This document shows, in pieces, positions 38,625 to 44,464 of a DNA stretch of 44,464 bases; the first letter of the stretch is position 1; the number at the start of each line of letters is the position of its first letter. This DNA comes from an uncultured Pelagibacteraceae bacterium (lineage in GTDB: Bacteria > Pseudomonadota > Alphaproteobacteria > Pelagibacterales > Pelagibacteraceae). A program made the position numbers and the translations under genes. The stretch spans positions 1 to 44,464 of the forward strand of contig CACHYG010000006.1 in NCBI GenBank assembly GCA_902584015.1, written 5' to 3'. The notes under the pieces were generated by a model. That model worked only from the letters and a program-made list of their open reading frames with translations. It did not search any database and was not told where the DNA came from.

Positions 38625-39509
38625 TTATTTTACAAGAAAATTCATTTTTTTATTTGACTGATTTAAATGAATTTTTTTATATGAACCAAAATTATCCCCG
38701 TCAATTTGAACAGGTATTAAATCATTTCCTTCAATAGTGATATTTTGAGAATAAGTAGTAATAACATTTTTGTTTTTACTTAAGTCGCCATTAAGGATTA
38801 TTAAAAATATGGAATATAATAAATTGATTCTAGTCAAATCCTTAAATATATAAGTAACTAATTTATCTTCAAAAATATTTGTTTTATTTATTTTATGATG
38901 GCCAGCGTAATATTTGGTATTTGAGGATAATATCCAGTCTGCTTGATAAAATTGTCCATCAAAAGTAACATTTAATTTTTTATTATTCATAAATAAGAAA
39001 TACTGAAAACCCTTGATGCCGAATATAATTTTACCAAGAATCTTTTTAATTTTTGAATTAATTGAATGAACAATTTTTGCATCCCATCCTATACCAGCCA
39101 TTAAAAAGAAATAACTTTCGTTAATTTTTACAAGATTAGAGGTTTTATAATTGTTTGAAATCAATACATTAACTATATCATCAACTTTTTTATTCATTGA
39201 TAATTCAGCTTGAAGTAAATTTGCTGTACCAGCGGGTATATAACCTATGGCAAAATCGTGTTTAAAGTTAAAATCATTTTTAATTAGTTCATTAATTGCA
39301 AAAGATACCGATCCATCGCCACCAGCTATTATTAGTCGATCGTATTTTTTTTGATTAAAATTTCTAAAAATTTCTTTAGCTTGATTTGTTGTTTTTGTCT
39401 CAAAGTAGTCTACAGAATTATTTTCTTTTAACTTAGATAAAACTCTATTTATGAATTGTGATTTTCTTCCTGAAGAAGAGTTTAGATTATAAATTAAACA
39501 ATATAACAT
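38625..39509 (-). CDS. Diacylglycerol-kinase-family (DagK/LCB5) lipid kinase
   Basis: The 294-residue soluble lipid kinase has the family's ATP-site motif IIAGGDGSVSFAINELI (around residues 60-76), GYIPAGTANLLQAELSM and a GIGWDAKIV segment, then a beta-rich C-terminal domain with VQIDGDNFG. The substrate may be diacylglycerol, giving phosphatidic acid, or another lipid. The gene is divergent from plcP. A Pho-box-like repeat in its own orientation lies 66 bp upstream of the ATG, so regulation by phosphate is likely. Its stop directly abuts the stop of the upstream mannosyl gene. Confidence 0.82.
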   Translation of the reverse strand: MLYCLIYNLNSSSGRKSQFINRVLSKLKENNSVDYFETKTTNQAKEIFRNFNQKKYDRLIIAGGDGSVSFAINELIKNDFNFKHDFAIGYIPAGTANLLQAELSMNKKVDDIVNVLISNNYKTSNLVKINESYFFLMAGIGWDAKIVHSINSKIKKILGKIIFGIKGFQYFLFMNNKKLNVTFDGQFYQADWILSSNTKYYAGHHKINKTNIFEDKLVTYIFKDLTRINLLYSIFLIILNGDLSKNKNVITTYSQNITIEGNDLIPVQIDGDNFGSYKKIHLNQSNKKMNFLVK

Positions 39510-39527
39510 AATTATTTCTTAAATAAT

Positions 39528-39546
39528 TTTTAACAAATTTGTAACA
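39528..39546 (+). promoter_or_regulatory. Pho-box-like repeat A, oriented toward plcP
   Basis: TTTTAACA-AAT-TTGTAACA is a direct repeat of an 8-mer with the 11-bp period of PhoB sites (classical CTGTCATA-N3-CTGTCATA). It ends 61 bp before the plcP ATG and is closely similar to the repeats at dagK-like and pstS. PhoB binding is inferred. Confidence 0.75.
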
Positions 39547-39575
39547 TTTGAATGAGATAAGAATTACATGATTCG

Positions 39576-39594
39576 TGTTACAGTTGTGTTAAAA
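39576..39594 (-). promoter_or_regulatory. Pho-box-like repeat B, oriented toward the DagK-like gene
   Basis: Read on the minus strand, TTTTAACA-CAA-CTGTAACA is the same period-11 direct repeat as box A but in the opposite direction. It ends 66 bp before the start codon of the minus-strand lipid kinase. It also lies within the presumed plcP leader. Confidence 0.72.
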
Positions 39595-39607
39595 AAAAGA
39601 TTTTTAA

Positions 39608-40420
39608 ATGCCTAATATATTAAAATATAAGAGTATATTTATTTCTGATTTGCATTTAGGTACCAAAGGTTGTCAGGCGAATAAAATTTTAGAGTTTTTT
39701 AAAAATTCAAGATCTGAAAATCTTTATCTTGTAGGAGACATTATTGATATCTGGGCAATGCAAAAAAGTTTTTTTTGGCCTCAAGAACATAATGATGTAA
39801 TCCAAAAAATTTTAAGAAAAGCAAGACATGGGACTAAAGTGTTCTACATAATGGGTAATCATGACGAGATGTTAAGGAAATTTATTCCAATGCATTTTGG
39901 TGACATTCATATGTTAAATAGAGTAATTCATGAAACAAATAATGGAAAAAAATATGTTGTTGTCCATGGTGATGCTTGGGATGGAGTAATGAAACATGCT
40001 AAATGGTTATCTAAAATTGGATCAATAGCATATAATTTATTGTTACAATTTAATGTAATAATTAACTTTTTTAGAAGGTTGAGAGGAAAAGAATATTGGT
40101 CCCTTGCAAAATTTTTAAAGTATAAAGTCAAAAACGCAGTCAAATATATTGGTGAATATGAAAAAACAGTTTCAGATTATGCAAAAAGAAAAAAGTTTGA
40201 TGGAATAATTTGTGGTCACATCCATCATGCTGAGGATAGAGATTTTAATGGTGTCAATTATTTAAATTGTGGAGACTGGGTTGAATCTTGTACTGCATTA
40301 GCTGAAAATTATGATGGTAGTTTTGAAATATTATATTGGGATAAAATAAGAGAACAATATTTAGACACTAAAGATATAATTAAACCTATTAAAACTGAAG
40401 ACTTAAAAAAAGCTTCATAG
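39608..40420 (+). CDS. plcP: PlcP-type phospholipase C (LpxH-superfamily metallophosphoesterase)
   Basis: The 270-residue calcineurin-like phosphoesterase has all metal-site motifs: ISDLHLG (Asp14, His16), VGDIIDIW (Asp44), MGNHDE (Asn84, His85), VHGDAWD (His120) and CGHIHHAED (His204, His206). By fold it belongs with LpxH. LpxI is encoded in this window, and the gene is followed 3 bp later by an Agt-type glycosyltransferase and lies in a phosphate-stress cluster. Together these point to PlcP, which removes the head group of phospholipids to leave diacylglycerol during phosphate starvation. A Pho-box-like repeat lies 61 bp upstream. No clear Shine-Dalgarno sequence is visible. The enzymatic role is inferred from context. 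Confidence 0.85.
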   Translation: MPNILKYKSIFISDLHLGTKGCQANKILEFFKNSRSENLYLVGDIIDIWAMQKSFFWPQEHNDVIQKILRKARHGTKVFYIMGNHDEMLRKFIPMHFGDIHMLNRVIHETNNGKKYVVVHGDAWDGVMKHAKWLSKIGSIAYNLLLQFNVIINFFRRLRGKEYWSLAKFLKYKVKNAVKYIGEYEKTVSDYAKRKKFDGIICGHIHHAEDRDFNGVNYLNCGDWVESCTALAENYDGSFEILYWDKIREQYLDTKDIIKPIKTEDLKKAS

Positions 40421-40423
40421 TTA

Positions 40424-41431
40424 ATGAAAATTTTAATTGCTACAGATGCATATTTTCCACAAGTAAATGGTGTCGTAAGAACCTTGCATGAAACAGGTAA
40501 TATCTTAAAAGAACAAGGTAATACTATAGAATATATTACTCCAAATTTATTTTTAACCTTTCCGATGCCTAAATATAATGAAATAAGGTTATCTATAAAT
40601 GTATGGCCAAGAGTTGGTAGTTTAATAAAGAAAATCAAACCTGATGCAATTCATATCGCTACCGAAGGTCCCATTGGGATTATGGCAAGAAGATATTGTT
40701 TAAAAAATAATCTAAAATTTACTACGAGTTTTCATACAAGGTTTGATAAATATCTTAAACTATACTTTCCAATTATACCTGCAAAATGGGCTGAAAAATT
40801 CTTAGCAAACTTTCATAATAAGGCTGAGAGAATTTTAGTAACAACAGAATCTATGAGAAAAGAATTAATCGATATAGGTATAGATAATAATAAAATGATT
40901 ACTTGGACCAGAGGAGGAAATCACGGAGCTTTTAAAAAACCTCAAAAAATTAATTTACCCCACAAAAGACCAATTTGGATTTATGTTGGAAGAGTTGCTG
41001 TTGAGAAAAATATAAGAGCTTTTTTAGAATGTGATTTAGAAGGTACAAAAATAATAATAGGAAAAGGACCCGATTTAAAAAAATTAAAAGAAGAATTCCC
41101 TAGAGATATATTTTTAGGAGAAAAAACAAATGGTGTACTTGCATCATATTTTGCATCTTCTGATGTTTTTGTATTCCCTAGTAAAACAGATACATTTGGA
41201 ATTGTAGTTACTGAGGCTTTAAATTGCGGTACGCCTGTTGCTGCGTATCCCGTTCCAGGTCCTAAAGATATTTTTGAAGGCTCCAAAATAGATTGTCTAG
41301 ATAATGATCTTAAAGTTTCAGCTTATAAAGCTTTAAAAGTTGATCGAAATGATTGTCTTGAATTTGCAAAAAAATTCACATGGGAAGAAACAGCAAAAAT
41401 ATTTTTTAATAATATTTCACCAAATCGTTAG
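40424..41431 (+). CDS. agt: Agt-type GT4 glycosyltransferase (glycolipid synthesis)
   Basis: The 335-residue GT4 glycosyltransferase has the GT-B N-terminal motif TDAYFPQVNGVVRTL, FHTRFDKYL, WTRGG and the donor-site region YVGRVAVEKNI. The acidic EX7E-like motif appears as FPSKTDTFGIVVTEALNCGTP. Such enzymes add glucose or glucuronate to diacylglycerol, giving phosphorus-free glycolipids. Being 3 bp from plcP, it would use the diacylglycerol that PlcP releases. The sugar donor cannot be told from the sequence. Less likely alternatives are a general mannosyltransferase or a sulfolipid-synthase-like enzyme. Confidence 0.85.
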   Translation: MKILIATDAYFPQVNGVVRTLHETGNILKEQGNTIEYITPNLFLTFPMPKYNEIRLSINVWPRVGSLIKKIKPDAIHIATEGPIGIMARRYCLKNNLKFTTSFHTRFDKYLKLYFPIIPAKWAEKFLANFHNKAERILVTTESMRKELIDIGIDNNKMITWTRGGNHGAFKKPQKINLPHKRPIWIYVGRVAVEKNIRAFLECDLEGTKIIIGKGPDLKKLKEEFPRDIFLGEKTNGVLASYFASSDVFVFPSKTDTFGIVVTEALNCGTPVAAYPVPGPKDIFEGSKIDCLDNDLKVSAYKALKVDRNDCLEFAKKFTWEETAKIFFNNISPNR

Positions 41432-41495: not shown

Positions 41496-42641
41496 ATGGA
41501 ATATTTCGTCATTCTACTTATAGTTGTTATAATTTATCTTCTATATCTACTTAATCAAAAAAAAAACAAACCAATAAATACCGCCACAATAATTAACAAA
41601 AGAGAAGAAAAAACAAAAAGAGTAATTATCGATGAGCTTGAGGATCAGTTTTTTGCATTAAATAAATTTAACATAATTAAATATGCTAATCCAAGTGCAT
41701 TAAAAAGATTTGGTAGTAGTTTAATTGATAAAAACATATCATCTGTAATTCGAAAACCAGAATTAATAGAAAATATTGAAAAAGCTATAGTTGAAAATAA
41801 AACAAAAAATATTGATATTGAAATAGGCTTGCCATCATATCAATTTTATAAAATTTATATTATTCCTGGTCCAACTCATTTATTTACTGAACCAGATTCT
41901 GTTGTGTTATTTTTAAAAGACTTTACTGAAATTACAAAAGCACAAAAATTTAAAACTGATTTTGTCGCCAATGTAAGCCATGAATTAAGAACACCCTTGA
42001 TGGCTATCAAAGGATCTTTAGAAACTATTGAAGGTCCAGCGGCAGAAGACGATAAAGCAAAAAAAAAATTTATGAAAATAATGACTGATCAATCAAATAG
42101 AATGGAAAATTTAATTAATGATCTTTTAATACTCACAAGAATTGAATTAGAAGAACACATAAGGCCAAACTCTTTAGTTAATATAAATGATCTTTTCAAA
42201 ACAATCATCAGTAATTTTGAGATTGTTTTAAAAAAAAAGAAATTAAATATTAATTTATCTCTCACAAATCCAACAATTGTTATTGGAGATGAAAAAAAAT
42301 TACAAACTGTTTTTTCTAATCTTTTAGATAATGCAATTAAGTATTCAAAGGAAAATAAGTCTATTTTTATATCAAGTGAAATTAGTGATGGTAAATTGTT
42401 AGAAAAAAATTTTATGATCAGTGTTAAAGACGAAGGTGTTGGCATTCCTCAAAGATATATTTCTAGAATTACAGAAAGATTTTTTAGAGTAGATCTTGAA
42501 CAAAGTAATAAGGTTGGTGGAACTGGTTTAGGATTAGCTATTGTTAAACATATAGTTACTCAACATCGTGGACACTATGAGATTCTAAGTGAGGAAAACC
42601 AAGGAACTGAAATTCAAATTTATTTACCAGCGAAAACTTAA
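41496..42641 (+). CDS. phoR: PhoR-like phosphate-sensing histidine kinase
   Basis: The 381-residue kinase has one N-terminal membrane segment (about 4-19), a PAS-like region (about 45-145), a HisKA domain with His162 (FVANVSHELRTPL) and a HATPase domain with LLDNAIKYS, VKDEGVGIP and GGTGLGLAIVKH. This single-membrane-helix plus PAS layout is that of PhoR, which signals phosphate state through the Pst system to PhoB. The position before pstS supports it. No response regulator is inside the window. phoB would be expected beyond the right edge, after the pst genes. Confidence 0.88.
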   Translation: MEYFVILLIVVIIYLLYLLNQKKNKPINTATIINKREEKTKRVIIDELEDQFFALNKFNIIKYANPSALKRFGSSLIDKNISSVIRKPELIENIEKAIVENKTKNIDIEIGLPSYQFYKIYIIPGPTHLFTEPDSVVLFLKDFTEITKAQKFKTDFVANVSHELRTPLMAIKGSLETIEGPAAEDDKAKKKFMKIMTDQSNRMENLINDLLILTRIELEEHIRPNSLVNINDLFKTIISNFEIVLKKKKLNINLSLTNPTIVIGDEKKLQTVFSNLLDNAIKYSKENKSIFISSEISDGKLLEKNFMISVKDEGVGIPQRYISRITERFFRVDLEQSNKVGGTGLGLAIVKHIVTQHRGHYEILSEENQGTEIQIYLPAKT

Positions 42642-42731: not shown

Positions 42732-43340
42732 ATGGTTAAAATATTCAAAAATATTTTGATTTTTGCTTTTTTGTTAAGTTCTATAACAACAAGTGTTTTT
42801 TCTAAAGATATCACAACATTATTAAGAAATCAGCAACTTACAGTTTTTGATATTGGAATTTTTAGATTAGAAGCAGATTTAAAAACCTCATATCCTTCTA
42901 TAAAAGATCATTTAGAAGTTACTGAAGATGAATTTTATACAGACGTAGTTACCTCGTATTCTAAAAATTCAATTGATTTAATTGTTTCTGTTCCTATGAA
43001 TGAAAATCTCAAGAAGGAAAATTATTTTTCAGATTCTTTTAGATGTAAAAATATTTTTAATTCTGTAAGAGATTTTTTATTGAGGAATGAAAATTTGAGT
43101 AATTACAGATATACTATGGCTACAAGTTATTTAACCTCTATATTTTCAACCCCAAGTTCATGGCCAAGCTGGAGATATGATGAAGAAATTAGAGAAGAAT
43201 TAGTAAACTTAGTAAAACTAGAAATAACTTTACGTCCAAGCAATGAACTAGCTCTTAATGAACAGGTAAACCCTGTTTCATGTATTGGTGGCCTAGAAAG
43301 TGATATTGATCAGATAATTATATCAAAAAAATACAACTAA
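42732..43340 (+). CDS. Secreted protein of unknown function between phoR and pstS
   Basis: I do not recognise this 202-residue protein. It has a clear signal peptide (MVKIFKNILIFAFLL..., likely cut near Ser24-Lys25) and no other membrane segment, so it is probably periplasmic or secreted. The mature part has two Cys (105 and 184) that could form a disulfide, a tryptophan-containing stretch PSSWPSWRYDEEI and a helical acidic stretch before TLRPSNELALNEQ. Location between a phosphate sensor kinase and pstS suggests a link with phosphate acquisition or sensing. It may be transcribed from phoR or from its own weak Pho-like site. Confidence 0.75.
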   Translation: MVKIFKNILIFAFLLSSITTSVFSKDITTLLRNQQLTVFDIGIFRLEADLKTSYPSIKDHLEVTEDEFYTDVVTSYSKNSIDLIVSVPMNENLKKENYFSDSFRCKNIFNSVRDFLLRNENLSNYRYTMATSYLTSIFSTPSSWPSWRYDEEIREELVNLVKLEITLRPSNELALNEQVNPVSCIGGLESDIDQIIISKKYN

Positions 43341-43350
43341 AAAGTTACCT

Positions 43351-43404
43351 TTTTAACAAAAGTGTAACAATTCTGTAATATTAAAGATTCAATAAATTTA
43401 TACT
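43351..43404 (+). promoter_or_regulatory. Pho-box-like repeat C and -10 element of pstS
   Basis: Three 8-mers with an 11-bp period, TTTTAACA (43351-43358), GTGTAACA (43362-43369) and CTGTAATA (43373-43380), form the clearest Pho-box-like site of the window. A good -10 TATACT (43399-43404) follows 18 bp later, so the last unit could take the place of the -35. The array ends 69 bp before the pstS ATG. Confidence 0.82.
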
Positions 43405-43449: not shown

Positions 43450-44464
43450 ATGAAAAAACTAACTATAGTAATTGCTTCATTAGTTGCTTTATCAATAGCA
43501 ACTGTTGCTCAAGCAAGAGATCAAATTAAGATAGTTGGTTCTTCTACGGTATTCCCTTACGCAACAGTTGTTGCTGAAAGATTTGGTGGTTCAGGATTTA
43601 AAACTCCTGTAATCGAATCTACTGGTACTGGTGGTGGAGCTAAACTATTCTGTGCTGGTGTAGGTGAACAACATCCTGATATTACAAATGCATCAAGAGC
43701 TATGAAAGATAAAGAAAAAGCTCTTTGTAAGAAAAATGGTGTAAATGAAATCGTTGAGATCGTAATTGGTAACGATGGTATTACATTAGCTTACAGCAAA
43801 GATGCAAAACCAGTAAACTTTACTAAAGAACATTTGTATTTAGCACTAGCTGCTCATACAGTTGTTGACGGTAAATTAGTTCCAAATATTTATAAAACTT
43901 GGGACCAAATTGACCCTAGCTTACCAAAACAAAAAATTTCAGTGATGATCCCACCAGGAACATCAGGAACTAGAGATGCTTGGAATTCTTTAGTTATGAA
44001 AAAAGGTATGACCAAAGAAGCTAAAGCTCTTTATAAAGCTGGTTTTGAAGCTGGAAATAAAAAATACAAAAAACCTCAAAAACTTTACAGAGAAGATGGT
44101 GCTGCTATTGAAGTTGGAGAAAATGATAGTTTAATCATCCAAAAGTTAACTCAAGATAAAGATATGTTTGGTTTCTTTGGTTTCAGTTATTTCTTAGCTG
44201 CAAAAGATAAATTGCAAGCAGCAAGTATTGATGGTGGACAACCATCATTGAAGTCTATTCAAGACTACAGTTATGCTGTTGCTAGACCTTTATTCTTCTA
44301 CGTGAAAAAAGCTCACGTTGGAGTAATTCCAGGTTTACATGAGTTTGTGAAAGAATTCACAACGAAGAAAGCTATTGGAAAAGGTGGTTACCTAGCAGAC
44401 ATTGGTTTAGTGCCATTAGACTCTAAGTTGTATAAAACAACTAGAACTAATGCTACCAAACTAG
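43450..44464 (+). CDS. pstS: Phosphate ABC transporter substrate-binding protein PstS (3' end outside window)
   Basis: This gene is not in the ORF track because it has no stop before the window ends, but it is open for 338 codons from the ATG at 43450. A ribosome-binding site AAGGA (43436-43440) precedes it. A signal peptide ends near ATVAQARD. The phosphate-binding protein motifs follow: VGSSTVFPYATVVAERF, STGTGGGAKLFCAG, NASRAMK and GTSGTRDAWNSLV. PstS binds inorganic phosphate in the periplasm for PstCAB. The codons are richer in G and C than in neighbours, consistent with high expression. Only a few C-terminal residues are likely to be missing. Confidence 0.95.
   Translation, partial: MKKLTIVIASLVALSIATVAQARDQIKIVGSSTVFPYATVVAERFGGSGFKTPVIESTGTGGGAKLFCAGVGEQHPDITNASRAMKDKEKALCKKNGVNEIVEIVIGNDGITLAYSKDAKPVNFTKEHLYLALAAHTVVDGKLVPNIYKTWDQIDPSLPKQKISVMIPPGTSGTRDAWNSLVMKKGMTKEAKALYKAGFEAGNKKYKKPQKLYREDGAAIEVGENDSLIIQKLTQDKDMFGFFGFSYFLAAKDKLQAASIDGGQPSLKSIQDYSYAVARPLFFYVKKAHVGVIPGLHEFVKEFTTKKAIGKGGYLADIGLVPLDSKLYKTTRTNATKL

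Follow-up and report, generated by a model that had tools for sequence, protein, structure and literature searches.

Two opposed predicted Pho boxes in the divergent spacer between a dagK-like gene and plcP in one SAR11 lineage

In Pho-regulon promoters, Pho boxes are bound by PhoB in proteobacteria and by PhoP in Bacillus. The locus analyzed here lies in a 44,464-bp stretch of DNA (the window) from an uncultured member of the Pelagibacteraceae. It resembles such promoters in its 7-bp direct repeats with an 11-bp period, its phosphate-starvation genes and the vicinity of phoR and pstS, but its opposed boxes are interlocked in a short divergent gap and their unit is A+T-shifted from CTGTCAT. 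Putative Pho boxes have been reported for marine plcP clusters in a set of strains that includes SAR11 HTCC7211 (PMC4796936). The plcP-agt order of HTCC7211 and the presence of Pho boxes in plcP-cluster genes recur in the window, whereas neither dagK-side nor opposed boxes are described in the main text of that paper. SAR11 clusters of diacylglycerol kinase, metallophosphoesterase and glycosyltransferase genes known from HTCC7211 are unevenly represented between ocean sites (PMC3686209). The HIMB59 phosphate islands (PMC10734472) also contain a diacylglycerol kinase, LpxH (a PlcP-like name), RfaG, PhoR, PhoB and PstSCAB, but no promoter layout is described there and the likeness comes from the gene list only. 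Two PHO boxes likewise occupy a divergent Pho-system gap in the Streptomyces phoRP-phoU region (PMC6283541); both of these point in the phoU direction, however, and consist of C+G-rich PhoP units. In the bidirectional promoters of Escherichia coli, divergent promoters overlap, fire in one direction at a time and can repress each other (PMC12825309). Here, in contrast, one regulator would activate both sides from two opposed boxes, and a symmetric -10 element is not clear in the window. Our search of open-licence papers turned up no description of opposed Pho boxes in the dagK-plcP gap.

The 98-bp gap at 39510-39607 is the divergent spacer between the DagK-like gene (hereafter dagK) on the minus strand and plcP on the plus strand (Table 1). 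The plus-strand pair plcP-agt is followed by the phoR-like gene, a gene of unknown function and pstS. For the phoR-like gene, the best family was phoR_proteo, with a score of 283.9 bits that lies under the TIGR02966 cut-off of 334.2. PhoB is encoded on another contig of the same genome, downstream of pstB and phoU, and scored 331.3 bits, over its cut-off. By sequence, therefore, the locus has the marks of a Pho-regulon member: repeats of the lineage's own unit, a pstS-like box distance, a PhoB in the genome and a phoR-like gene. The genome has an A+T content of 70% and a completeness of 73%, which means that further Pho promoters may have escaped the count. Named records of uncultured Pelagibacteraceae single cells contain the DagK-like protein at 97-100% identity. 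The 202-aa protein encoded between phoR and pstS is kept across the family with 41-98% identity. In HTCC7211-type loci (L093, L095, L096, L098 and L099), about 1.6 kb of extra sequence separates agt from phoR.

Table 1. Features of the dagK-plcP locus; positions are those of the window.
Feature	Position	Strand	Description
DagK-like lipid kinase gene	38625-39509	minus	Start codon ends at 39509; Pfam DAGK_cat 7.6e-24
Pho box A (predicted)	39528-39545	plus	TTTTAAC-AAAT-TTGTAAC; directed at plcP; 62 bp before plcP ATG; 17.2 bits
Candidate plcP -10	39556-39561	plus	GATAAG; 10 bp after box A; 4/6 match to TATAAT
Candidate dagK -10	39563-39568	minus	TGTAAT; 8 bp after box B; 5/6 match to TATAAT
Pho box B (predicted)	39577-39594	minus	TTTTAAC-ACAA-CTGTAAC; directed at dagK; 67 bp before dagK ATG; 20.4 bits
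plcP, metallophosphoesterase	39608-40420	plus	Start codon at 39608; Pfam Metallophos 9.5e-13
agt-like glycosyltransferase	40424-41431	plus	3 bp downstream of plcP; Pfam Glyco_transf_4 and Glycos_transf_1
phoR-like sensor kinase	41496-42641	plus	TIGR02966 phoR_proteo 1.4e-84
202-aa protein between phoR and pstS	42732-43340		Likely signal peptide; no Pfam match
pstS three-repeat Pho box	43351-43379	plus	TTTTAACAAAAGTGTAACAATTCTGTAAT; 70 bp before pstS ATG at 43450

Boxes A and B each comprise two 7-bp direct repeats with an 11-bp period, and the SAR11 repeat unit is roughly [TCG]T[TG]TAA[CT]. A pattern built from the two boxes, TGTTAVNNNNNTGTTAM, had three exact matches in the 929-kb genome, namely the boxes themselves and one site upstream of pstS that was not used in building it. 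A looser pattern, TTWAYA-N5-TGTAAYA, gave counts near the control in four genomes and was replaced by a scoring matrix. The matrix was trained on 11 distinct pstS boxes from relatives only, with boxes A and B excluded; being built on related pstS promoters, it represents few independent sites. We scanned the window and 60 other stretches, amounting to 892 kb and 96% of the genome bases. Box B ranked second and box A seventh genome-wide. Among intergenic matches, the top four comprised box B, box A and a pair of overlapping pstS sites with 20.9 and 18.6 bits; the remaining high matches lay inside genes. At 1,781,986 other positions, which served as background, a score of at least 17.1 bits was reached only three times and one of at least 20.3 bits never. 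Dinucleotide shuffling of the 98 bp produced a site of at least 17.2 bits on both strands in none of 20,000 shuffles. The ranks and the shuffles together bear out the proposal of an earlier note on this DNA that two oppositely oriented Pho boxes share the 98-bp divergent gap. The classical CTGTCAT-N4-CTGTCAT was absent from the gap even at three mismatches and, over the window, matched no better than expected by chance. In the window-type clade, conservation of the two boxes did not significantly exceed that of sites placed at random in the spacer (0.21).

Since the repeat unit is nearly symmetric (TGTAACA versus TGTTACA), the direction of each box needed testing. Every distinct pstS promoter inspected carries the unit in a single orientation. 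Box B scored 20.4 bits in the forward and 6.2 bits in the reverse direction, and box A 17.2 and 3.3 bits. The forward reading places the boxes 62 bp (plcP) and 67 bp (dagK) from the ATG, and the pstS box lies at 70 bp. On the strength of pstS, the scores and the distances, box A points to plcP and box B to the DagK-like gene, as the note had it. A second family of the order, in which plcP is not adjacent to dagK, has weaker sites (5.7-8.0 bits) in the plcP promoter that run the same way; this lends the orientation mild support. The boxes are separated by 31 bp, and each occupies the end of the spacer farther from the gene it faces: box B separates box A from plcP, and box A separates box B from dagK. 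With this arrangement, a plcP transcript driven from box A should cross box B, and vice versa, unless it starts beyond that box. The note had held that each promoter must run through the other's site; the interlocked geometry was observed, while transcription across the boxes is what this geometry would predict. Its further suggestion, that occupancy at one box could help or block the other, becomes a reasonable expectation of mutual interference once the orientation is fixed by pstS.

A sigma-70 scan found no full promoter. The candidate -10 elements of plcP and dagK are adjacent, both weak, and lie within the 31 bp between the boxes. In 61 distinct promoters, the core ATAA of the plcP candidate was nearly invariant, and the 8-bp gap after box B was the best-scoring one for the dagK -10 (mean 4.39/6). 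Because the candidates are weak and a full sigma-70 consensus is lacking, the start sites used below are predicted ones. For pstS, the best fit of the -10-like hexamer is at another gap from the repeat (19), which makes the box-to-start spacing unsure.

Next, we followed the two boxes through related genomes. DagK homologues were present in 131 of 399 same-genus genomes, and plcP adjoined dagK divergently in 59 of the 60 same-genus loci fetched. Box A occurred in all 60 divergent same-genus loci, the window included, with scores of 5.4-20.4 bits. Box B, at a threshold of at least 15 bits, occurred in 40 of these 60, again with the window, and was missing from 20, where the best minus-strand score was 3.1. 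Its repeat-unit variants between lineages (TTTTAAC, TTTTAAT and TTGTAAC) keep the unit. In five other genera, all 14 dagK-plcP loci examined contained box A, with 1 to 23 bp between it and the dagK start; none contained box B (best minus-strand score 8.0). Box A remained plcP-directed in loci without box B, at 61-75 bp from plcP; the HTCC7211-type locus L096 has box A only. On the DagK tree, box B mapped to one clade with a single change and 96/99 support, nested among box-A-only lineages. A single supported clade fits one gain of box B, which looks like a later addition restricted to one SAR11 lineage. What appears new is that box A extends across the family, often right beside the dagK start, and that box B is limited to one supported DagK clade.

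The box B label needed two changes on the plcP tree, seven on the agt tree and four on the pstS tree, all of them quick trees with many weak forks. These changes suggest that lineages exchanged the dagK-plcP pair independently of the downstream genes. In L083-like loci, agt, phoR and pstS were 93-99% like those of the window, but plcP was 83% and dagK about 60% identical; from such identities across L060-L119, the pair seems to have been swapped by recombination. Locus L106 has a window-type dagK with boxes A and B, with transport genes in place of a missing plcP, a layout that reflects either a rearrangement or a join in the single-cell assembly. A near-palindrome around TATAAT was seen only in some box-A-only relatives, unlike the adjacent, weak -10 candidates of the window. 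In HTCC7211-type box-A-only loci (L093-L099; e.g., GATTCTACTTATAATAGAATCA), it occupies the box B columns, and may represent an earlier bidirectional -10 whose place box B took.

The products of the two divergent genes bear on what such a promoter pair would control. The DagK-like protein matched DAGK_cat with 84.1 bits, and its nearest solved structure was DgkB (2qv7, 2.2e-18). Its nucleotide loop, GGDGS at residues 63-67, was invariant in four aligned homologues. In the 2qv7 alignment, GGDGS and a DGD stand against GGDGT and, near the C-terminus, DGE of DgkB, and the protein scored under the TIGR00147 cut-off (103.6 versus 118.65 bits). Owing to this score and these deviations, we call the protein DagK-like only, with a substrate that is inferred. 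The gene was the only DAGK_cat gene in the four genomes searched, in which no DgkA was found; its product is a putative DAG kinase. The plcP product has a metallophosphoesterase domain and its gene is followed by agt in a Pho cluster, as expected of PlcP, and its matches to LpxH equivalog models were far below cut-off. Phospholipase C activity is known for homologues, from which it may be extended to this protein (PMC4796936). There, the HTCC7211 plcP homologue restored DGTS synthesis in a Phaeobacter plcP mutant, and the agt homologue expressed in E. coli yielded MGDG and GADG (PMC4796936).

On balance, and with reservations, we read the 98 bp as a pair of overlapping, PhoB-dependent promoters that face each other. 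With phosphorylated PhoB bound at box A, RNA polymerase would be recruited and plcP-agt would start near 39568; with PhoB at box B, it would be recruited to start dagK near 39556. As 31 bp between the boxes is too short for two polymerases, each DNA molecule would fire either toward plcP or toward dagK but not both at once, and the plcP:dagK ratio would be set by how strong sites A and B are relative to each other. Elsewhere in the family, the older form would persist, with box A alone near the dagK start and PhoB favoring plcP over dagK; the gain of box B in one lineage would have put dagK into the Pho regulon as well. Diacylglycerol released by PlcP in phosphate starvation would then be split between glycolipid synthesis and re-phosphorylation to phosphatidate. 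Most likely, a plcP-favoring promoter gave rise to two PhoB-activated ones that compete for the same stretch of DNA, and one PhoB-type regulator probably turns on the genes of both the DAG-making and the putative DAG-consuming enzyme. In E. coli bidirectional promoters, strong activation of one direction represses the other via polymerase competition, and in the cases studied a bound recruiting activator did not block a passing polymerase (PMC12825309), which makes competition more likely than a roadblock here. More tentatively, and short of what we would call probable, a single gain of an opposed box would have rewired a family-wide one-sided Pho promoter, and mutually exclusive promoters would set the ratio of breakdown to salvage through polymerase competition.

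The rival that survives best, though we think it unlikely, is that box B tunes plcP, as a downstream brake or through cooperative binding, while dagK starts independently of PhoB. The dagK -10 candidate is poor, box B would lie some 10 bp past the predicted plcP start, and relatives transcribe dagK without box B. Box B is, however, dagK-directed at 67 bp, much as the pstS and plcP boxes are placed, and its presence tracks the DagK clade (one change) better than agt (seven) or pstS (four), with two changes needed for plcP.

The earlier note also envisaged a phosphate-driven switch between making and consuming diacylglycerol. In a true switch, PhoB on one box would raise one gene and shut the other, with the direction set by the PhoB level through a difference in affinity. 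Sites A and B do overlap in space and their scores are unequal, but the differences are small and change sign between species (in L103-L105, box A has 20.4 and box B 15.3 bits). Moreover, a single regulator and a single signal act on both genes. If the same phosphorylated PhoB fills both boxes, then plcP and dagK should rise together, and phosphate alone cannot choose between them. Consistent with this, both PlcP and DagK are reported to be enriched on Pi depletion in a PHO-dependent manner in Pseudomonas putida BIRD-1 (PMC5082522). By this analogy, both genes should rise under phosphate starvation wherever both boxes are present. The switch is therefore not upheld for the window and, given also that a bound activator did not stop polymerase in E. 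coli (PMC12825309), we regard it as doubtful, slightly more so than the tuning of plcP by box B. A one-way arrangement, with plcP up and dagK down, fits the box-A-only relatives better.

A back-to-back layout, in which box A serves dagK, box B serves plcP and no transcript crosses the other box, is not absurd for a near-symmetric unit read as TGTTACA. It was nevertheless ruled out as highly improbable: the reverse scores are low, the unit runs the other way in all pstS promoters, only 18 bp (A) and 13 bp (B) would be left to the ATGs, and box A keeps its plcP direction and distance in lineages without box B. Chance resemblance is scarcely credible even in an A+T-rich spacer of a genome where short repeats are common, given the shuffles, the background counts and the conservation of box A throughout the family.

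When phosphate is scarce, SAR11 swaps phospholipids for glycolipids, and PlcP starts this route. If the same regulator does induce the DagK-like gene in one lineage only, then close relatives would recycle diacylglycerol in different ways. As a pair, the promoters also offer a compact natural test of one activator's two competing sites, for which the box-A-only relatives are a ready control.

A further short motif recurs in these spacers. GATTC, an instance of the CcrM-type methylation site GANTC, lies at 39570-39574 and is retained in almost every dagK-plcP gap. In other genera, two copies form GATTC-N13-GATTC upstream of dagK (L288-L304). In most relatives, GATTC-N13-GAGTC surrounds the likely -10 of the pstS promoter, with the window site at 43386-43390. 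As a general promoter element, GANTC-N13-GANTC was rejected, as the genome holds one pair, which is not intergenic, against about 1.8 expected. GANTC itself is depleted about twofold in the genome (1268 observed, 2417 expected), which also encodes a 358-aa CcrM-like methyltransferase.
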